DNA of 32,595 bases from Thermoflexales bacterium (GTDB taxonomy: Bacteria; Chloroflexota; Anaerolineae; B4-G1; DUEL01): contig JACIWQ010000027.1 in the NCBI GenBank assembly GCA_014360895.1, positions 1 to 32,595 of the forward strand. Reading direction: 5' to 3'. The stretch's first letter is position 1, and each line of letters begins with the position of its first letter. The notes beneath the pieces are model-generated. The model was not told the origin of the DNA. It made no database searches and saw nothing but the letters and a program-made list of their open reading frames with translations. A program made the position numbers and the translations under genes. Positions 4,896-29,499 of the stretch are shown here, in pieces.

Positions 4896-4951
4896 ATTCA
4901 CGATTCACGAATCACGTTTCACGGTTCACGAATCACGAATCACGATTCACG
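4896..4951. repeat. Heptamer array A (8 x 7 bp, ATTCACG/AATCACG)
   Basis: Eight contiguous 7-bp units in perfect phase. On the plus strand they read ATTCACG, ATTCACG, AATCACG, TTTCACG, GTTCACG, AATCACG, AATCACG, ATTCACG; on the sucD sense strand the core is CGTGAAT. The last unit (4945-4951) contains the sucD stop codon (4947-4949). The other end is about 27 bp from the DUF917 start. There are no spacers of the kind a CRISPR array has. Confidence 0.9.
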
Positions 4952-5822
4952 ATATAACCTCCGCCACCATCCGGGCAATCTGCTCGGGGTGCTCCGCCAC
5001 GCGGACCCCGGCGGCCTCCAGCGCGGCGATTTTCTCCGCCGCCGTCCCGGTACCGCCCTCAATGATGGCCCCGGCGTGGCCCATGCGCTTCCCCGGCGGC
5101 GCGGTCCGACCGGCGATGAAGGCGACCACCGGCTTGGTCATCCGCTCGGCGATGAAGCGGGCGGCCACCTCCTCGTCGTTGCCGCCGATTTCGCCGATGA
5201 GCACTACCGCTTTCGTCTCCGGGTCCGCCTCAAAGAGGGCCAGGACGTCCACAAAACGGGTGCCGATAATGGGGTCGCCGCCGATGCCGACGCAGGTCGT
5301 CTGCCCGATGCCCAGCGCGGTGAGTGCGTAGACGACCTCGTAGGTGAGGGTGCCGGAGCGGGAGACGACGCCCACCGGCCCCGGCATGGCGATGTGGCCG
5401 GGCATAATGCCCACTTTGGCCTGCCCGGGGGTGAGCAGACCCGGACAGTTGGGCCCCACCAGCTGCACGCCCTTCATATCCAGGTACGCCTTGACCCGAA
5501 TCATCTCGTTGACCGGGATGCCCTCGGTGATGCAGACGACCAGGCCGAGCCCGGCGTCCGCCGCCTCTATGATGGCGTCCGGCGCGAAGGGGGCCGGGAC
5601 GTAGATGACGGATGTGTTGGCGCCGGTGGCCTCTACGGCCTCCCGGACGGTGTCAAAGACGGGGACGCGGCCGTCGCAGGCGAACTGTCCGCCCTTGCCC
5701 GGGGTGACGCCCGCGACGACGTTCGTGCCATAATCCAGCGTCTGTCGGGTGTGAAATTCGCCCTCGCGCCCGGTCACACCCTGCACGACCAGGCGGGTGG
5801 TTTGATCTACCAGAATGGACAT
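4947..5822 (-). CDS. sucD: Succinyl-CoA synthetase alpha subunit (ADP-forming acyl-CoA ligase)
   Basis: A 291-residue protein of normal SucD length. It has the N-terminal Rossmann CoA-binding domain ('[14 protein letters not shown]', 'TPGKGG'), '[12 protein letters not shown]' near residue 125, the '[10 protein letters not shown]' loop and the phosphohistidine motif 'MGHAGAI' with active-site His near residue 249. With SucC it interconverts succinyl-CoA, ADP (or GDP) and phosphate with succinate, CoA and nucleoside triphosphate in the cytoplasm. The ATG at 5822 follows GGAGGCACC. It lies downstream of sucC, separated by a 7-bp repeat array. In an amino-acid fermenter the pair could also drain acyl-CoA esters to ATP; this is inference. 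The TGA stop is embedded in heptamer array A. Confidence 0.95.
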
Positions 5823-5837
5823 GGTGCCTCCGATGGG

Positions 5838-5907
5838 GTGAAAAGTGAAAAGTGAAAAGTGAAACGTGAAAAGTGAAACGTGAAAAGTGAAACGTGAAAA
5901 GGGAAAC
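5838..5907. repeat. Heptamer array B (10 x 7 bp, GTGAAAA/GTGAAAC)
   Basis: Ten contiguous 7-bp units without an indel: GTGAAAA and GTGAAAC alternate irregularly on the plus strand, and the last unit is GGGAAAC. The array fills the space between the sucC stop (5914-5916, 6 nt away) and the sucD ribosome site (about 5826-5831). Read in register, the core CGTGAAA resembles arrays A and E. Confidence 0.9.
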
Positions 5908-5913
5908 GTGGGG

Positions 5914-11719: not shown

Positions 11720-12310
11720 GTGGGAAAAACATGGTTAAATCTGAAGCGACGTATCTCGCAAGAACTTAATGCTCTTGACAGGGATACTCAAACGATAATT
11801 GGCATCTGCCTTGCAGCATTCGTGTTGATTGCAAACTTTTTGTTATTCGTTACATGGAGAGAGACAGGCACAAAACTGCCAGTCATTATGACATTGTGCG
11901 TGATTGCAGCAAATGTATGGCTGGGGAGTGTTGGTTTTTATTACTCCTGCGATACCTGGAAGGAAATGCGTGCTTTCCGGCTCAACGCAAAGGAGACAAC
12001 AGGGAGAGTAGTTAAGGTAGAGTCCAACTGCTGGGACGATATTGGCCTTGTGTACTATCCCATCATTGAATATGAAGCCGAAGGACGCGTTTATGTCCTA
12101 CGGCATCATCTTTACAGTGCTGTTGTCAATCGCTACAAATTGGGCGACATATATCGCCTGGTTTATTGCCCAGAAAGACCAGGACGGGCAGAATTTTATC
12201 CGTATCCCGTGTGGAAGAAGGGCATCAAGTTATTTGTATATGGATTAGCAGGAGTTATGGCTAGCGGTAGTTTGGTTGGACTTTTGTGCTTGTCGATTTT
12301 TCCAGGATAG
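11720..12310 (+). CDS. DUF3592-like membrane protein, AT-richer than its neighbours
   Basis: A 196-residue protein with two N-terminal membrane spans (about residues 26-45 and 55-75), a globular middle and one C-terminal span (about 172-192). The middle part matches the DUF3592 pattern: 'ETTGRVVKVESN' opening strand, 'VYYPIIEYEAEGRVYVL' and 'YKLGDIYRLVYCPERPGRAEF'. The role of this domain is unknown. The start is GTG at 11720 with GGAGAG eight bases upstream; a nearby ATG at 11731 is out of frame. Base composition is clearly lower in GC than flanking genes (many AAT, AAA, TTA and ATA codons), and repeats lie on both sides, so recent acquisition is plausible. No promoter was recognised. Confidence 0.62.
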   Translation: MGKTWLNLKRRISQELNALDRDTQTIIGICLAAFVLIANFLLFVTWRETGTKLPVIMTLCVIAANVWLGSVGFYYSCDTWKEMRAFRLNAKETTGRVVKVESNCWDDIGLVYYPIIEYEAEGRVYVLRHHLYSAVVNRYKLGDIYRLVYCPERPGRAEFYPYPVWKKGIKLFVYGLAGVMASGSLVGLLCLSIFPG

Positions 12311-17107: not shown

Positions 17108-17644
17108 TCACAGGGCGAATTCTGCGCCCTTGCGCAGCGCCTCTTTGTTCAGCGGGAGCCACTTCCGGTGGCGTTCCGCCAGGTGGTGATCCAGCGCCTG
17201 CTCCAGCGCCTCCAGCGGCAGGACGCCCAGGGCCTTCGTCAGCGCGCCCAGACAAATCATGTTGGCGACCCGCGCGTTGCCCATTTCCGTCGCCAGTTCC
17301 GTTGCCGGGACGTAGAGGACGCGGATGTCGTCCCGTTCGCTCCGACGGGGGATCAGGGACTGGTTGACCACCAGGAGGCCGCCGGGTTTGACCATCGGCT
17401 CAAAGGCCTCAAAAGAGGGGATGTTCATCACAATCGCCGCGCTGGGGCGGCGAACCAGGGGCGACCCGATTTCCTGGTCGGAGATGATGACGGTGCAGCG
17501 GGCTTTGCCGCCGCGCATTTCCGGGCCGTAAGAGGGAATCCAGGTGACGTGAAAGTCGGCGTCCATCGCGGCGTAGGCCAGCACCTGTCCGGCGAACAGG
17601 GTCCCCTGGCCGCCGAAGCCGGAGATAATGATTTCTTCCTGCAT
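17108..17644 (-). CDS. vorC: 2-oxoacid:ferredoxin oxidoreductase gamma subunit (VorC/KorC type)
   Basis: A 178-residue gamma subunit: 'IIISGFGGQGTLFAGQVLAYAA' (split at the conserved glycines), 'HVTWIPSYGPEMRGGKARCTVIIS' with the family YGPEMRGG motif, and 'VANMICLGAL'. In four-subunit enzymes it packs against alpha and forms part of the CoA site, helping oxidative decarboxylation of 2-oxoacids to acyl-CoA with ferredoxin as electron acceptor. The ATG at 17644 follows GAGGAGGCAACCC. It lies 48 bp after vorA, the spacer being largely a perfect palindrome, and 69 bp ahead of ald. Branched-chain specificity is inferred from the alpha and beta subunits rather than from this one. Confidence 0.88.
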   Translation of the reverse strand: MQEEIIISGFGGQGTLFAGQVLAYAAMDADFHVTWIPSYGPEMRGGKARCTVIISDQEIGSPLVRRPSAAIVMNIPSFEAFEPMVKPGGLLVVNQSLIPRRSERDDIRVLYVPATELATEMGNARVANMICLGALTKALGVLPLEALEQALDHHLAERHRKWLPLNKEALRKGAEFAL

Positions 17645-17664
17645 GGGTTGCCTCCTCAAATATG

Positions 17665-17699
17665 GAGGTGACAGTCACCTTCCAGGTGACTGTCACCTC
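17665..17699. repeat. Perfect 16-bp palindrome containing the vorA stop codon
   Basis: GAGGTGACAGTCACCT (17665-17680) and its exact reverse complement (17684-17699) with a TCC loop. The vorA TGA stop (17693-17695) lies inside the right arm. The same core recurs at 24466-24495. Confidence 0.85.
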
Positions 17700-18484
17700 T
17701 CCATCAGCGCGCGCACGCTGTCGGCCACTTTGGTGTCCCCCAGCGGGTAGTAGGGCACCATATTCTGCTTTGCCCACTCCAGCGCGTCCAGCGGCGACAG
17801 GCCCCAGTTGGTGTTGCAGGTGGAGATGATTTCCACCATAGAGAAGCCCAGGCCGGCCAGTTGAACCTGGAACGCCAGTTTGATGGCCTTTCTGGTGCGC
17901 CGGATGCTGGGCACATCCAGCACCGACTGCCGGGTGACGTAGGCCGCGCCAGGGAGCATGCCGATGAGTTCGGCCATCTTCATCGGCCAGCCCGCCGTCT
18001 CCACGTCCCGCCCACGTGGGGAGGAAGTCGTGACCTGTCCGGGCAGGGTAGTGGGGGCCATCTGCCCGCCCGTCATCCCGTAGATGGCGTTGTTGACGAA
18101 GATGGTGGTGATGAGTTCACCCCGGTTGGCGGTGTGGATAATCTCCGAGGTGCCGATGGCGGCCAGGTCGCCGTCCCCCTGGTAGGTGAAGACCACCTTA
18201 TCCGGGCTGACCCGCTTGATGCCGGTGGCCATCGCGGGAGCTCGTCCGTGGGCCGCCTCGCAGAAGTCCATGTTGAAATACTCGTAGGCCAACACCGCGC
18301 ACCCCACCGGCGCCACGCCAATCGTCCGCTCCCGAACCCCCAGTTCATCTATCACCTCGGCGATGAGCCGGTGGATGACCCCGTGGGTGCAGCCGGGGCA
18401 GTAGTGGGTGACCTTCGGCGTCAGGCTTTCCGGGTACGCGTAAACCAATTCCATGTCAGGGGGAACTTCAAGGATGGTATCCAT
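17693..18484 (-). CDS. vorA: 2-oxoacid:ferredoxin oxidoreductase beta subunit, thiamine diphosphate-binding (VorA-like)
   Basis: A 263-residue beta subunit. It carries '[14 protein letters not shown]' with two Cys of the [4Fe-4S] site, '[11 protein letters not shown]', '[15 protein letters not shown]', and the ThDP/Mg motif '[15 protein letters not shown]' continuing to '[18 protein letters not shown]'. This wording matches the VOR-type (3-methyl-2-oxobutanoate) beta subunits I recall better than pyruvate enzymes, though 2-oxoglutarate cannot be excluded. The start at 18484 is chosen for GGAGG five bases upstream; an ATG at 18496 overlaps the end of the KAP gene. In ordinary operons this gene directly follows the alpha subunit; here about 2.7 kb with two unrelated genes intervene. 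Confidence 0.9.
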
Positions 18485-18495
18485 TGAAACCTCCA

Positions 18496-19929
18496 TTATT
18501 CAGAAATTGGAACCAATACGTTTTCACGAACCAGTCTTAACAGATGACCCATCACTTCTGGAGAAGGCATCTGAAGGCTGTATCCTGTGGTCTTGGCTAA
18601 ATGGCGTGCGAACTGGCAGAACTCTTTCAAAGGAGAGGGGGATCTTTCTATGTCCTCATCTGTCGCATTTTGTCCCTGAAAGCAAGCGTGAAGCGGGCTT
18701 CTCCCCTGAACAAACGCGATTAACTCTTCCGGATCCAACCGATAGTACATAGCGATCAGGAAAAGGAGCCAGAATGGAAAGGAGGCGGGCAGTCTGGAAC
18801 GCAATTCTTCAGCAGAAGGATCTTGGAGAAGTTGCAATAGATTTTGGAATTTATACACAATTTTCAGCATAGTGCGTGGAGTGCCCAGGGATGGGATGGA
18901 AAGCAATCTGTCTATCTCCATCCACCCGGGAAAATCATCTCCGTACCAATCTCGCGCCGCGTCGCTCAGCCGGCGCCAGGGGAAACCCCGGAAGACTTGC
19001 CGCACTGCCATAGTTTCCGCTGCGGTGGTGAGGCCCAATTCGTATTCAATATCTACAAGTTTTTCCAGATACCGGAAACCATAAGCGAGGTCTCTCTCCT
19101 CCCCCAAGTACTCCCGATATCGGCCTACTATAGCCCGTGCTGCGGCGATGTGATCCAGAGCCAGCACATAAGTGCATTTTTCAGTTTGGAGATGGACCTT
19201 CATCCATTCAAACATACGGACCATATTCTCAGGGGAGCAGCGATCCAGATCGTCTATGAAAATAGCCAATCGGTATTGTTTCGTTGAATCCATGGCCTCC
19301 GCTGCGTTCAAGATGCTCTCTACCAGGTCGTCCATTTTTTGGTGAATTTTGTCGGTAACTGATGCCAGTGTATCACGAGGTTCTGCGACCTGGGTTTCCA
19401 CCCATTGCCGAGCCGCTTTGACGGCGTCTCCCACGGGTCTGGCAACAGGGGTGAACAGAGATGCGATTTCTGGGCCAACTTCCAGGATCAGGTGAACCAA
19501 ATCGCGGGCGATATCTTTGTAAGAGGGGCCTTCCGACGGCAATTTCAGTTTAGGGTGACAGCACCCCCGGACCCGGCAGAATTTGTCAACGTTTTCTTCA
19601 ATGCGGCCCAGGGATTTGATCAGCCCTGCGGCCAGATCTCCCTCCATCTCATATTTCCATGCTTCAAACACACAGATCAAGACCTGAGTTTTTTCTTGAC
19701 AGTTCTGTTCCAATAGAGAGCGAATAACCTGGCTCAGCAGATAAGTTTTACCGGAACCCCAAGAGCCGTATACACCGATGACGCTTGGTCGCTCAGGTCC
19801 ACGGATGCGGCGAGCAATATCTTGAGCGATTGGTTGCCGTCCCAGTTCATCCGTCAGACTTCCGATTTCTTCAATCTGCCAGGAAAAGCGTGGAAAGGTG
19901 GATTGCCGTCTGTGCGCTGTGGTTGTCAT
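18496..19929 (-). CDS. KAP-family P-loop NTPase
   Basis: A 477-residue KAP-type NTPase. Walker A is GSWGSGKT at 55-62; '[17 protein letters not shown]' (about 89-104) is the KAP-typical segment after it; Walker B '[20 protein letters not shown]' spans about 221-240; 'YVLALDH' and '[15 protein letters not shown]' follow, as in KAP proteins. Many members carry membrane spans between the Walker motifs; here that region (about 105-215) has none that is convincing, suggesting a cytosolic form. KAP NTPases include PifA, the F-plasmid phage-exclusion protein; their mechanism is little known. The ATG at 19929 overlaps the TPR gene stop (ATGA), implying translational coupling. GC content is visibly lower than in the flanking vor genes. 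Function unknown; a defence role is a guess. Confidence 0.82.
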
Positions 19930-21125
19930 GTTCCCTCCAGGCGGCTGCACACCATGGCCAACGTTTTTCTGATTTGAGGGTAGTGCCTGGCCACTTCTTC
20001 CAGCAGCCGTCCGTCCTCGGCGAAGAGCAAGTTAACGGCTTCATTGAGTGCATTTGGGCTTGTTCCTGGACTCACCGTACCTTTTGGGATGCCGAGAATC
20101 TCTTCCAGTTCTTCCAGCGATTGCCCAGTGCTGCGAGCGGCCCGTTCCCACATAATCGCTGGGGAGAAATCCTGTCGGATCCGCCCTCGCAACGTATAGC
20201 GTAAGCTCTGGATGAGTGAGAGAGCTTCGCCGTATTTGCGTTGGGCCATCAAAATCCGAAAGCGCTGCTCATATATGGGTGTAATGGGGTGATTGAGATC
20301 ACCTGTATATAATTTTTCGGCCAGTTCCAGATAGTGCAGGGCCTTTGCTAAGTAATTTTCTCCTACTCGTTCTCCGGCATCGGTGGCTCCTTCCTCCACG
20401 TGTTCAGGGTAGCGGAGATTTTCCCGCCCTGCCTGCTCCTGATACAATTGGGCCAGTTCGGAAGCCAGCACATACCCGTTTTCCAGGCCCAGGCGAAGCC
20501 CCATTAGATATCGCTCTTCTAGGGTCTGTAGGACCCATCTATGGTACTCTTCCAGGTCCTTCTCGTCTTGGATTTCCCTCACAGGCGCACTATCTACCAG
20601 CACCCTGCGATAGTTTCGCAGAATGTCCATTACGCTGTCCCTTCGGACGTATTTTAATCCTTCATCCAAAAACTCCAAAGCACGTTGAGGGTCGTGCAAG
20701 AAACGCCCATAGTATATGGCCATATACACCCAATATCGCCAGTATGGAGCCTTCTTGGGAAGTTCCATCTCCTCAAGCGTGCGCGCAATGTCACGGGCAC
20801 GTTGTGGGTGATAATGCGAAGTGATTCGTAATTGAAGTTCATCGCACAACAGATCCACATTTTCCGGCCATTCATCCAACCCGCACTGGATCAACCGGAG
20901 CTCTGCTTCTCTATGACCCACGCGAGCAGCAACCATTGAGGTATTATGCCATTCATCAGGATTGCCTGTGTAATTGTCCAGGTCCTCCCATACTTGTTCA
21001 AATACCTCAAAAGCCCGATCAGGATTCACATATTCGTACTGGGTTACCTCGCGATAGAGACGCCAGAGGGGTTTCTCCCGCCGACGCCGGGAATCCGGTA
21101 ATTGAGTCATATTTAGGAAGTCCAT
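19926..21125 (-). CDS. TPR-like helical-repeat protein, partner of the KAP NTPase
   Basis: A 399-residue soluble protein without signal or membrane spans. Helix pairs with TPR-like spacing are visible: 'NPDRAFEVFEQVWEDL', 'AELRLIQCGLDEWPENVDLL', 'DPQRALEFLDEGLKYV', 'AKALHYLELAEKLYTGD' and 'RKYGEALSLIQSLRY'. The C-terminal part ('SLEELEEILGIPKGTVSPGTSPNALNEAV', split at prolines) looks like a separate small helical domain. No enzymatic motif was found. The ATG at 21125 follows AGGAGGCAAACT. It starts 35 bp after the vorB stop and overlaps the KAP gene by 4 bp, so it probably acts with that NTPase, perhaps as sensor or scaffold. Its GC content is lower than that of vorB or vorA, fitting insertion as a two-gene cassette. 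Confidence 0.68.
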   Translation of the reverse strand: MDFLNMTQLPDSRRRREKPLWRLYREVTQYEYVNPDRAFEVFEQVWEDLDNYTGNPDEWHNTSMVAARVGHREAELRLIQCGLDEWPENVDLLCDELQLRITSHYHPQRARDIARTLEEMELPKKAPYWRYWVYMAIYYGRFLHDPQRALEFLDEGLKYVRRDSVMDILRNYRRVLVDSAPVREIQDEKDLEEYHRWVLQTLEERYLMGLRLGLENGYVLASELAQLYQEQAGRENLRYPEHVEEGATDAGERVGENYLAKALHYLELAEKLYTGDLNHPITPIYEQRFRILMAQRKYGEALSLIQSLRYTLRGRIRQDFSPAIMWERAARSTGQSLEELEEILGIPKGTVSPGTSPNALNEAVNLLFAEDGRLLEEVARHYPQIRKTLAMVCSRLEGT

Positions 21126-21160
21126 AGTTTGCCTCCTAAAATGCAGAGGGGCGAAGATGC

Positions 21161-22225
21161 TTAACGGGTTTCCTGGTGTAGTTCCTCCAGTTTGGGCAGA
21201 ATCTCATCCGGCAGGGGGATGATGCCGCCCATGCGGCCGTAGAAGCGGACGGGGCAGCGGCCCTCCACCGCCAGCCGGACGTCCTCCACCATCTGCCCGG
21301 CGTTCATCTCCACCACCAGGATGCCCCGGACCTGCCGGGCCAGTTCGGCGATACGGGCCGAGGGGAAGGGCCAGACGGTGATGGGGCGCAGAAGGCCAGC
21401 CTTCAGCCCCTTCTCCCGCGCTTCCCGCACGACAGTCTGACAGACCCGGCCCACGGTGCCGAAAGCCACAATCAGCAACTCGGCGTCTTCGGTGGAATAC
21501 TCCTTCCAGCGGACCTCGTTGGCCGCGATTTCCCGCAGTTTGGCCTGCAGCCGGAGGTTGACCTTTTCCAGTTCCTCCTCCACCAGGTAGAGGGAGGTGA
21601 TGATGTTAGGTTTGCGGCCTTTTGCCCCGGTCAGCGCCCAGGCGGGCCGCTCTTCCGGTTTGCGGACGGGGCGCATCGGCGGCATCTCCGCCGGCTCCAT
21701 CATCTGGCCCAGGGAGCCATCGGCCAGGACCATTGCAATGGTGCGGTACTTGTCCGCTAGGTCAAAGGCCAGGACGGTCAGGTCAATGGCCTCCTGAATG
21801 TTGCCCGGGGCCAGGACGATGGGGTGGAAGTCGCCGTGGCCGGCCATCTTCACGGCCTGGAAGTAATCCCCCTGGGAGGGGGCGACGTTCCCCAGGCCGG
21901 GCCCGCCCCGCATCACGTTGATGATGACGGCGGGTACTTCGGAGCAGGCGATGTATGAAAAGCCCTCCTGCATCAGGCTGATGCCGGGGCTGGAGGAAGA
22001 GGTCATCACCCGGGCGCCCGCGCAGGCCGCGCCGTAGACCATATTGATAGATGCCACCTCGCTCTCGGCCTGCAGAAAGACCCGTCCCAGTTCGGGCAGA
22101 CGGTGGGAGAGGTGTTCCAGAATCTCGGTCTGAGGAGTGATGGGGTAGCCGAAAAAGGCCTCCACGCCGGCCCGGACAGCGGCCTCGGCGATGGCAGCAT
22201 TGCCTTCCCAGAGTTCTTTTGCCAT
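21161..22225 (-). CDS. vorB: 2-oxoacid:ferredoxin oxidoreductase alpha subunit (VorB-like)
   Basis: A 354-residue alpha subunit: '[27 protein letters not shown]' (split at the family GYPITP motif), '[27 protein letters not shown]', '[21 protein letters not shown]' (split), and '[19 protein letters not shown]'. The [16 protein letters not shown] wording is typical of branched-chain 2-oxoacid (VOR-type) enzymes as I recall them, unlike the RxGPSTG motif of many 2-oxoglutarate enzymes. With beta, gamma and delta it converts 2-oxoacids plus CoA to acyl-CoA, CO2 and reduced ferredoxin. The ATG at 22225 follows TGGAGGGAAC. It is 60 bp after vorD. The beta gene, normally next, is displaced by the TPR-KAP pair. 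Confidence 0.9.
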
Positions 22226-22285: not shown

Positions 22286-22567
22286 CTACCAGCGCACGGT
22301 ACGAGGTTCCGTGCGGGCCGGTTCTGCGGCGGGTTGCTCCCGGCGCGCCCTCCGGCGGTAGACGGTGAAGACCACGTCGGGGCAGATGGTGGCGCACATC
22401 GCGCAGCCGATGCAGGCTTCGGGGTCCGTCACCTCTACGGGCCGGTACCCCCGGATATTGAAGCGGCCGTCGGCCAGTTTCAGAATGTGCACCGGGCAGA
22501 CAGAAACACAGAGTCCGCATCCTTTGCAGCGGTTCTCATCTATGATAACTATGCCTTTTGCGGCCAT
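22286..22567 (-). CDS. vorD: 2-oxoacid:ferredoxin oxidoreductase delta subunit, 2[4Fe-4S] ferredoxin (VorD-like)
   Basis: A 93-residue dicluster ferredoxin. Two complete binding motifs are visible: CKGCGLCVSVCP near residues 13-24 and CIGCAMCATICP near 52-63, followed by a basic, proline-rich tail of about 25 residues that is longer than usual. It passes electrons from the catalytic subunits to soluble ferredoxin. The ATG at 22567 follows ACGGAGGAAAT. It is the first gene of the vorDB-TPR-KAP-vorAC-ald-CoA-transferase run. Its ribosome site lies directly against the end of heptamer array C, and no sigma70 promoter is recognisable between it and the upstream gene. Confidence 0.9.
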   Translation of the reverse strand: MAAKGIVIIDENRCKGCGLCVSVCPVHILKLADGRFNIRGYRPVEVTDPEACIGCAMCATICPDVVFTVYRRRARREQPAAEPARTEPRTVRW

Positions 22568-22576
22568 ATTTCCTCC

Positions 22577-22681
22577 GTCGGTAGTCGGTAGCCGGTAGTC
22601 GGTAGTCGGTAGCCGGTAGTCGGTAGTCGGTAGTCGGTAGTCGGTAGTCGGTAGCCGGTAGTCGGTAGTCGGTAGTTGTTA
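22577..22681. repeat. Heptamer array C (15 x 7 bp, GTCGGTA/GCCGGTA)
   Basis: Fifteen contiguous 7-bp units in perfect phase on the plus strand: GTCGGTA with interspersed GCCGGTA, and a final degenerate GTTGTTA (22675-22681) that contains the TAA stop codon of the four-helix-bundle gene (22679-22681). The other end touches the ribosome site of vorD. Confidence 0.92.
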
Positions 22682-23059
22682 GTGGCGGGATTTGTTGGTG
22701 ACCGTGGCGAGAAGGCCAAAGAGCATTTTGATGATTTCTGCCAATTCGCTCTGAAGGGTCTGATAAACCGATTCCGGGAGATAGCTCACGTCTCGGGCAA
22801 TTTCCAGTTGTGTGCTCAGTTCGGCGGCTGATCCCAGCGCGATGTCTATGTGCCGGGCGAAGACTTTGGAGGAACGGCGAATATGACCTTCAGCAATGTT
22901 GGAGGGGATGGAAACAGCCGCCCGACGCATCTGGTCTGCCAGGCCGTACTGTTCCCGCTGAGGGAATGCCTCCGTGACCCGATAAATCTCCACCGCCAGG
23001 GCTTTAGACCTCTGCCAGACCTGGAGGTCTCGGTAATTCCTGACCTTTTCTCTCTCCAT
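22679..23059 (-). CDS. Four-helix-bundle protein (S23 / bAvd-like, 23S rRNA intervening-sequence protein family)
   Basis: A 126-residue helical protein of the S23 family: 'NYRDLQVWQRSKALAVEIYR' opens helix 1, 'QYGLADQMRRAAVSIPSNIAEG' (split at SIPSNIAEG) is the family signature, and 'FARHIDIALGSAAELSTQLEIA' the third helix. Relatives are encoded inside 23S rRNA intervening sequences, and the Avd protein of diversity-generating retroelements shares the fold and forms a basic pentamer that binds nucleic acid. Here there is no rRNA or reverse transcriptase. The ATG at 23059 follows GGAGAGGAGGGGCAAGCAG. The gene stands alone between two 7-bp repeat arrays, one ending 22 bp before its start and the other containing its stop codon. 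Function unknown; a link to the repeats is a hypothesis. Confidence 0.9.
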   Translation of the reverse strand: MEREKVRNYRDLQVWQRSKALAVEIYRVTEAFPQREQYGLADQMRRAAVSIPSNIAEGHIRRSSKVFARHIDIALGSAAELSTQLEIARDVSYLPESVYQTLQSELAEIIKMLFGLLATVTNKSRH

Positions 23060-23081
23060 CTGCTTGCCCCTCCTCTCCCTT

Positions 23082-23382
23082 CCGGCTATCCCCTTTCGGC
23101 TTCCGGCTAATCCCTTCCGGCTTCCGGCTAATCCCTTCCGGCTTCCGGCTAATCCCTTCCGGCTTCCGGCTAATCCCTTCCGGCTTCCGGCTATCCCCTT
23201 CCGGCTTCCGGCTACCCCCTTCCGGCTTCCGGCTATCCCCTTCCGGCTTCCGGCTATCCCCTTCCGGCTTCCGGCTATCCCCTTCCGGCTACCGGCTACC
23301 CCCTTCCGGCTTCCGGCTATCCCCTTCCGGCTTCCGGCTATCCCCTTCCGGCTACCCCCTTCCGGCTACCCCCTTCCGGCTA
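23082..23382. repeat. Heptamer array D (43 x 7 bp, mostly 21-bp superunits)
   Basis: A 301-bp array of exactly 43 heptamers with no indel. On the plus strand the units are CCGGCTT, CCGGCTA and TCCCCTT (or ATCCCTT, CCCCCTT), mostly in the fixed order CCGGCTT-CCGGCTA-xCCCCTT to give 21-bp superunits; near the right end the order shortens to CCGGCTA-CCCCCTT. The last unit (23376-23382) contains the TAG stop of the RmlA-type gene (23380-23382). The stretch 23060-23379 holds nothing else except the ribosome site of the four-helix-bundle gene. Confidence 0.93.
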
Positions 23383-24447
23383 CAAAACTCCCACCTGACT
23401 ATAATCCCCTAAGTTCATCTTGAAGGCTTTGGGCTTCATCGGGGAGCGGGTCAGCACCGCGTTGCGCCCGATGAGGCTATCCTGGAGGCGCGCCGGGAGG
23501 TCACGGATGACGCTGTGCTCCAGGACGATGGAGCGCTCAATCTCGCTGTTCTCCACCACCACGTCGTGGTAGATGGAGGTGAAGGGGCCGATGTAGGAGT
23601 TGACGATACGGGAGCGCTCACCGATGATGGTCGGCCCCCGCACCACGCTGTTGATGATTTCCGCGCCCTTCTCCACCGTCACCCGGCAATCCACCTCGGA
23701 GTCCCGGTCCACAAACCCCTCTATGACCGGGGTCAGTTCCTGGAGGACCATACTGTTGGCTTCCAGCATATCGCCGGGCTTGCCGGTGTCTATCCACCAG
23801 CCGCGATGGATGTACGGGAAGACTTTGTAGTCGTGCTCCACCAGCCATTGGATGGCGTCGGTGATTTCCAGTTCGCCCCGCCAGGAGGGTTTGATTTCGT
23901 CCACCGCCTGGTGGATGTGGTGGTCAAACATATAGATGCCTACCAGGGCCAGGTCGGAGGGGGGCTCTTTGGGCTTCTCTATCAGCCGCACCACCCGGCC
24001 CTCGCCGTTGAGGACGGCGACGCCGTACTGCTCCGGGTGCTCCACCCGGGTCAGCACAATCTGGGCGTTCCAGTCCGATTCCTGGAACTGGCGGACCAGT
24101 TCGGTGATGCCGCCCTGGATGACGTTATCGCCCAGGAACATGACGAAGGGCTCGTCGCCCAGGTAGTCCCGGCTCACCTTGACCGCGTGGGCCAGGCCCA
24201 GGGGTTGGGGTTGATGGATGTAGGTGATTTTGATCCCCCAGCGGTTGCCCCGCCCGACGGTCGCTTTGATCTCCTCGGCGGTGTCGCCGACGACGATGCC
24301 GATGTCGGTGATGCCCGCGTCCCGGATGGCCTCAATGACGCGGAAGAGGATGGGTTTGTTGGCGACGGGGATCAACTGCTTGGCGCGAGTATAGGTCAGC
24401 GGGTAGAGACGGGTGCCCTTGCCGCCGCTCAGAATCAGTCCCTTCAA
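23380..24447 (-). CDS. Glucose-1-phosphate thymidylyltransferase, long form (RmlA-type nucleotidyltransferase)
   Basis: A 355-residue protein. The N-terminal nucleotidyltransferase domain has 'LKGLILSGGKGTRLYPLT', 'AKQLIPVANKPI' and 'FVMFLGDNVIQGG'; 'EKPKEPPSDLALVGIYMF' and 'RGELEITDAIQWLV' follow. The C-terminal ~110 residues form a left-handed beta-helix ('VEKGAEIINSVVRGPTIIGE', split). Long-form members activate glucose-1-phosphate with dTTP for deoxysugar synthesis. The best start is TTG at 24447, as GGGAGG lies five bases upstream and it gives the family N-terminus; upstream GTG codons overlap that site. No rmlBCD genes are present. The TAG stop is embedded in heptamer array D. Sugar specificity is inferred from the family. 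Confidence 0.85.
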   Translation of the reverse strand: MKGLILSGGKGTRLYPLTYTRAKQLIPVANKPILFRVIEAIRDAGITDIGIVVGDTAEEIKATVGRGNRWGIKITYIHQPQPLGLAHAVKVSRDYLGDEPFVMFLGDNVIQGGITELVRQFQESDWNAQIVLTRVEHPEQYGVAVLNGEGRVVRLIEKPKEPPSDLALVGIYMFDHHIHQAVDEIKPSWRGELEITDAIQWLVEHDYKVFPYIHRGWWIDTGKPGDMLEANSMVLQELTPVIEGFVDRDSEVDCRVTVEKGAEIINSVVRGPTIIGERSRIVNSYIGPFTSIYHDVVVENSEIERSIVLEHSVIRDLPARLQDSLIGRNAVLTRSPMKPKAFKMNLGDYSQVGVL

Positions 24448-28996: not shown

Positions 28997-29428
28997 ATGA
29001 GCACGGAATGGAACCCGCCGCCTCCACTCTCTCCCTCCGACGAGCGCACGTGGGCGATGCTGGCCCATCTGAGCGTCCTCCTGAACCTGGTCACCGGGAT
29101 GTTGGGACCGGTGGCCGCGCTGGTTATCTACCTAGTCTTTAAAGACCGCTCCCGCTATGTGGCCTACCAGTCCCTGCAATCCCTCATCTTCCAGTTGATT
29201 ACCTGGGTGGGTGGGGGAGTTCTGATCGGGGTGACGGCCGCCGTCGCGGGGATTCTCACTGTTGTGCTGGTGGGCTTCTTGCTTTTTCCCCTTGTTGCCC
29301 TGCTGGCGCTCATCCCGCTGGCGGGCCTGGTCTACGGGGTCATCGGCGGCATCCAGTGCAGCCAGGGGCAGGATTTCCGCTACTGGCTGGTCGGCGACTG
29401 GGTGCGGGGCACGCTGACAGGGGCGTGA
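28997..29428 (+). CDS. DUF4870 small membrane protein
   Basis: A 143-residue protein with a proline-rich cytoplasmic start, then 'RTWAMLAHLSVLLNLVTG', the family opening of DUF4870, the conserved 'YVAYQSLQSLIFQL' segment, and three membrane spans (about 23-45, 64-90, 95-118). The function of the family is unknown. The start at 28997 is preferred because AAGGAG lies six bases upstream; an ATG at 28991 overlaps that site. It lies 21 bp after dnaB in the same direction. Its TGA stop (29426-29428) falls in the first unit of heptamer array E. Confidence 0.82.
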   Translation: MSTEWNPPPPLSPSDERTWAMLAHLSVLLNLVTGMLGPVAALVIYLVFKDRSRYVAYQSLQSLIFQLITWVGGGVLIGVTAAVAGILTVVLVGFLLFPLVALLALIPLAGLVYGVIGGIQCSQGQDFRYWLVGDWVRGTLTGA

Positions 29429-29499
29429 GGCGTGAGGCGTGAAACGTGAAGCGTGAAGCGTGAGGCGTGAGGCGTGAAGCGTGAAGCGTGAAGCGTGAT
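29423..29499. repeat. Heptamer array E (11 x 7 bp, GCGTGAA/GCGTGAG)
   Basis: Eleven contiguous 7-bp units in phase: GCGTGAG, GCGTGAA, one ACGTGAA and a last GCGTGAT. The first unit (29423-29429) contains the DUF4870 stop codon; the last ends just before the GAGGG ribosome site of lipA. Confidence 0.92.

Follow-up and report, generated by a model that had tools for sequence, protein, structure and literature searches.

Within the window, the whole stretch of 32,595 nucleotides analysed here from a Thermoflexales bacterium, two genes lie between the alpha and beta subunit genes of a 2-oxoacid:ferredoxin oxidoreductase. The genes of this neighbourhood follow one another on the minus strand in the order ferredoxin, alpha subunit, TPR, KAP, beta subunit, gamma subunit, alanine dehydrogenase and a CoA-transferase of the acetyl-CoA hydrolase/transferase family. 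Since the alpha gene scores as VorB, the name VOR is reasonable for the enzyme. The features of the locus are the following.

22286-22567, minus strand: vorD-type ferredoxin (4Fe-4S domains; adjoins the alpha gene in relatives)
21161-22225, minus strand: vorB, alpha subunit, adjoining the TPR gene (NF005507 VorB, 537 bits against a cutoff of 399)
21132-21137, minus strand: AGGAGG ribosome site of the TPR gene (sequence)
19926-21125, minus strand: TPR-like alpha-solenoid protein of 399 aa, first cassette gene (open reading frame and predicted solenoid model)
19934-19938, minus strand: GGAGG ribosome site of the KAP gene, within the 3' end of the TPR gene (sequence)
18496-19929, minus strand: KAP P-loop NTPase of 477 aa, second cassette gene (PF07693 at E 4e-30, Walker motifs, RdrA-like fold)
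18496-21160, minus strand: inserted segment from the vorB stop to the vorA ribosome site, with approximate borders (absence in relatives, shift in GC and codon use)
18490-18494, minus strand: GGAGG ribosome site of vorA, right behind the KAP stop (sequence; identical placement in relatives)
17693-18484, minus strand: vorA, beta subunit, adjoining the KAP gene (PF02775 at E 3e-18)
17108-17659, minus strand: vorC, gamma subunit (PF01558, TIGR02175)

The KAP start is the ATG of a four-base ATGA overlap with the TPR gene. The vorA start homologous to that of relatives is the ATG at 18484, and a further ATG in the same frame, at 18496, shares bases with the stop codon of KAP (TAATG). The vorA product is 76-95% identical to the beta subunits of relatives from nearer families. 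A sequence-only reading of this DNA had described a cassette that keeps the direction of the operon, brings its own ribosome sites and leaves that of vorA intact, and this description is accurate: all of the genes lie on the minus strand, with AGGAGG, GGAGG and GGAGG ahead of the TPR, KAP and vorA genes. A scan of the insert for promoters and terminators gave signals at chance level, and an Rfam scan of the window returned no RNA family.

Other features of the window lie outside the cassette. Upstream of the ferredoxin gene, within 22577-23423, a gene for a 23S rRNA-intervening-sequence (four-helix bundle) protein (22679-23059) is flanked by two tandem-repeat arrays with units of 7 and 21 bp, and a partial homologue of this gene occupies the equivalent place in a relative of the same genus (L036). 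Intergenic tandem arrays of 7-bp repeats with differing units occur at 4896-4953, 5838-5910, 22577-22676 and 29423-29498. A second stretch of low GC (0.45) at 11720-12310, with a weak DUF3592 match, is possibly an acquired gene too.

The first cassette protein matches no Pfam family at E 0.1. Its AlphaFold model is a TPR-type superhelix (mean pLDDT 76, with low confidence in the C-terminal quarter), Foldseek ranks TPR superhelices highest for this model (E values of 6e-5 or weaker, probability 1.00), and the protein is conserved in five other pairs. The second protein matches PF07693 (KAP_NTPase) with 105.4 bits against a cutoff of 20. Its Walker A (GSWGSGKT) and Walker B (IFIDDLDRC) motifs are intact, and their positions are invariant or nearly so among five sequences. 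KAP NTPases typically, although not universally, carry transmembrane segments within the NTPase domain. Here the insert region is mildly hydrophobic, with a best 19-residue hydropathy of 1.37 in the window protein, 1.78 in that of Chloroflexus islandicus and lower values in the others.

The model of the KAP protein has medium confidence (pLDDT 71). Its closest solved fold is RdrA of the RADAR system (Z 18.8), followed by BrxC of BREX (13.8) and ORC/Cdc6 (12.8). The RdrA match spans the NTPase domain only (residues 7-300; rmsd of 3.5 over 235 residues, 15% identity), and may reflect common ancestry of the domain rather than common function. The helical residues 300-477 matched no fold when compared within the complete model and correspond to no known effector domain, and neither the TPR nor the KAP protein contains a nuclease, deaminase, TIR or other effector domain. 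The best sequence matches by the KAP domain are PifA, PDC-S20 and QatA, the last also recovered with NCBIfam. Its KAP relatives PifA, QatA and Tmn are anti-phage proteins or components of anti-phage systems, and RdrA is the nearest fold.

The composition of the two genes sets them apart from their surroundings. The TPR and KAP genes have a GC content of 0.51-0.53, compared to 0.60-0.66 in the flanks. Taking the other genes of the window as the reference for codon use, GC3 is 0.54 and 0.52 for the TPR and KAP genes against 0.79-0.89, and codon adaptation is 0.34 and 0.35 against leave-one-out values of 0.63-0.73. Two coupled genes of lower GC between vorB and vorA had been noted from the sequence, and the ATGA overlap, GC, GC3 and codon adaptation all agree with it. 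We aligned the vor loci of relatives, as had been proposed. No orthologue of either gene occurs in any of 60 relatives, in which KAP matches were short and distant, short of any counterpart to the pair. Alpha and beta share a contig in 29 relatives, and in every one of them vorB adjoins vorA with no TPR-KAP pair. The pair would have been an old metabolic component had it been present in all relatives with matching codon use; it is present in 0 of 60, and its codon use deviates. The cassette is thus inserted and foreign, as the sequence-only reading had held, and the window's genome has indeed acquired a rare, self-contained pair of genes horizontally.

The aligned gap between vorB and vorA measures 8-136 bp in relatives, with three exceptions, all from the same genus (L035, L036 and L052). 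These exceptions hold a DUF2283 gene (257 bp), an apparent decayed remnant of DUF2283 (246 bp) and a DUF4258-DUF2283 pair (680 bp). The inserts in sister species indicate that the gap took up DNA at least two times in the genus and is a recurrent landing place.

The search for other TPR-KAP pairs, also proposed at the outset, recovered five further intact pairs and one decayed copy. The six intact pairs belong to the window, C. islandicus, two other MAGs of Chloroflexota (MAG 629H.12 and Centralia MAG_675), Dethiosulfatarculus sandiegensis and a contig of a viral catalogue; the decayed copy belongs to an uncultured Chloroflexus. A search with the TPR protein in 400 genomes of the phylum revealed two more carriers (G263, which is C. 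islandicus, and G091, which is Centralia MAG_675), in both of which a KAP gene follows the TPR gene with a 4-base overlap. A scan of a collection of species genomes with a KAP alignment recovered both of these again and added D. sandiegensis (Desulfobacterota), MAG 629H.12 and the uncultured Chloroflexus with its broken copy. The pair of MAG 629H.12 is split on two contigs, L180 ending and L070 starting within one TPR gene with edge residues common to both. Note that Centralia MAG_675 (L071) is titled Proteobacteria, yet what seems to be the identical contig (G091:C198) belongs to a genome that the genome collection places in the phylum of the window. A single KAP sequence against genome and viral contigs, and a single TPR sequence against viral contigs, retrieved no orthologue, and alignments were required there. 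The TPR profile also had weak matches elsewhere, of about 20 bits across 50-75 residues; these resemble ordinary TPR motifs of large proteins and were discarded.

Among the 400 genomes of the phylum, the TPR protein (by its search) and an intact KAP (by its profile) occur in exactly the same three. The KAP profile additionally matched the broken copy (G144), and its scores fall from more than 600 bits to 120 bits at the next KAP. Gene order is identical in all pairs, and the 4-base overlap is present in five of the six. Paired KAPs form a single clade with a support of 100/100, and none of about 75 other KAP loci has a recognisable member of the TPR family of the cassette. Plasmid and phage records yielded distant KAPs only, with no TPR gene on plasmids. 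The TPR and KAP genes constitute an exclusive, overlapping partnership and a real unit. The intact pairs of the six carriers are 37-51% identical, and the GC of the pair is 0.51-0.57 in every carrier, irrespective of the host. The KAP of D. sandiegensis is 47% identical to that of the window, compared to 41-42% for two KAPs of Chloroflexota, and this greater proximity of a desulfobacterial protein points to transfer between phyla. Among the literature passages recovered, none describes a TPR-KAP pair.

The genus Chloroflexus shows the gain and loss of the pair at the level of single bases. The insert of C. islandicus measures 2985 bp (L068:6521-9505), and precisely this site is empty in the closest relative (L165), where the flanks meet within 3 bp. 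A third, uncultured Chloroflexus (L072/L170) retains an insert that has lost an internal part, so that the start of the TPR gene is joined to the middle of the KAP gene, the end of which is broken. The genus consequently offers a natural test set of intact, decayed and empty sites. No terminal inverted repeats or target duplications of at least 9 bases were found at the ends of the C. islandicus insert, none of note were found in the window, and no transposase was seen with the insert. Neighbours in the other carriers, some of which were named by eye from translations, include dnaE and a secreted-looking protein, TRAP and ZIP transporters, nusA/infB and galT, and a murF-like gene; the pair of the viral contig is flanked by a VIT1 gene and a phage head protease. 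Since these neighbours are unrelated, the linkage to vor is accidental, and the combination of a one-clade unit, unrelated neighbours and an empty site indicates that the cassette is horizontally mobile and independent of VOR. As a separate observation on the viral-catalogue contig, an apparent 80-kb prophage lies within another phage gene (phrog_13692, split at about position 107-117; L156:6025-6456 and L163:6361-7533), directly beside the TPR-KAP pair and a head protease gene.

Our favoured explanation is a cassette of two genes that spreads horizontally without a transposase and acts as a unit, most likely as an anti-phage or other conflict module, and we give this explanation about an even chance of being correct. 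A role in conflict is suggested by the relatives of the KAP protein (PifA, QatA, Tmn), by RdrA as its nearest fold, and by a distribution that is sporadic and mobile, as is typical for conflict genes. The pair of the viral-catalogue contig stands beside phage head genes, which counts in favour of such a role; the remaining neighbours resemble housekeeping genes, which counts against it. No PADLOC family was recovered at E 1e-5 in ten neighbour proteins of four loci. The pair lies in no recognised defence island, and it fits none of the known system models that were tested.

A narrower proposal, which we put forward tentatively and with some doubt, is that TPR-KAP represents an undescribed two-protein immune module, a split-design counterpart of TPR-sensor STAND/NLR-like proteins, which spreads as a transposase-less cassette into housekeeping neighbourhoods instead of defence islands. 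Under the favoured explanation of a conflict module, the cassette, which has no clear promoter of its own, would be read from the vor operon, and vorA would stay translatable through its own ribosome site. The TPR solenoid could serve as a sensor or docking subunit that holds the KAP NTPase in an inactive state or sets its position. Once triggered by a phage product or by stress, the NTPase would bind ATP and form a ring like those of RdrA or STAND proteins, and this assembly would harm the phage or the infected cell. The candidate toxic or blocking part is the last third of the KAP protein, which is helical (roughly residues 300-477). If confirmed, the pair would be a two-gene system that current defence catalogues have missed, lying outside defence islands and matching no specific model.

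Several other explanations have to be weighed against these data. The pair could be a mobile accessory module for stress or signalling with no role against phage, in which the KAP ATPase and the solenoid remodel or localise a cell component under stress. The housekeeping or transport neighbours of several carriers would suit such a module, as would tested neighbours devoid of defence genes and proteins devoid of effector domains; however, a distribution this sparse, with its mobility and decay, is more in keeping with conflict genes than with a generally useful stress function, and we regard this explanation as unlikely. Two overlapping genes inserted with no apparent promoter could also constitute a selfish addiction pair, one protein being toxic and the other restraining it so that loss harms the cell, and the DUF4258-DUF2283 pair in the vorB-vorA gap of a sister species does resemble a toxin-antitoxin unit. 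Yet proteins of 399 and 477 aa are large, unlike those of classical toxin-antitoxin pairs, and the copy of the uncultured Chloroflexus decays with both genes damaged at once, which makes addiction a distinctly unlikely account. It is improbable, too, that the pair is neutral DNA merely passing through, expressed only because of where it happened to land: one copy has decayed and many sites are empty, but the intact frames, the conserved motifs and six distant intact carriers (37-51% identity) show long-term selection on the pair.

The position of the pair between both catalytic subunit genes in the window genome raised the thought that it might regulate the 2-oxoacid:ferredoxin oxidoreductase or sense the metabolic state of the cell through that enzyme. 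The enzyme, however, does without the pair in 29 of 29 relatives, and the pair is away from vor genes in all other carriers. Monitoring of metabolism through VOR, as the sequence-only reading had entertained, is thus not supported, given the unrelated genes around the pair elsewhere, and a link of this kind is very improbable. The insert could finally be an assembly chimera misjoined into the operon, considering that the genome is a draft of 262 contigs and that GC shifts sharply at the borders. Both borders nevertheless lie precisely in the interval from the alpha stop to the ribosome site of beta, no repeat of at least 9 bases is common to both ends that could mislead an assembler, and C. 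islandicus, an independent isolate genome, carries this pair as an insert too, so that a chimera is hardly credible.

The preferred reading, a mobile conflict cassette, can be set against known systems. PifA of the F plasmid, like Tmn, shares with the window protein the KAP NTPase domain, Walker A and B motifs and a sporadic distribution (PADLOC PifA, E 2e-22), but the likeness to PifA is not full-length, as residues 26-313 match positions 16-265 only of a profile of 720. Neither PifA nor Tmn is known to have a separate TPR partner. QatA is the KAP NTPase of the qatABCD defence operon, and the window protein scores 83.6 bits to NF041923 over residues 26-299; this score is far under the curated cutoff of 600, the C-terminal part is not common to both, and no QatB, QatC or QatD lies beside any TPR-KAP pair. 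Tmn is a defence KAP NTPase (PMC11846954). It has two clear transmembrane segments, whereas the window KAP has only a mildly hydrophobic insert.

RdrA forms a heptameric, two-layered AAA+ ring (PMC9994260). It has about 835 aa compared to 477 aa in the window KAP, residues 300-477 of which have no match in it. The partner of RdrA in RADAR is the RdrB adenosine deaminase, while that of the window KAP is a TPR-like solenoid, with vor genes on both sides. Membership in PifA, qatABCD and RADAR was rejected on full-length similarity, score cutoff and partner genes.

TPR-sensor STAND NTPases (MalT, PH0952 and NLR-like immune proteins) resemble the pair in combining an AAA+-related switch ATPase with a TPR sensor, and are kept off by sensor contacts and multimerise once triggered (PMC6468293). 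They are single chains with a STAND NTPase, whereas in the window the solenoid and the ATPase are separate proteins and the ATPase is a KAP.
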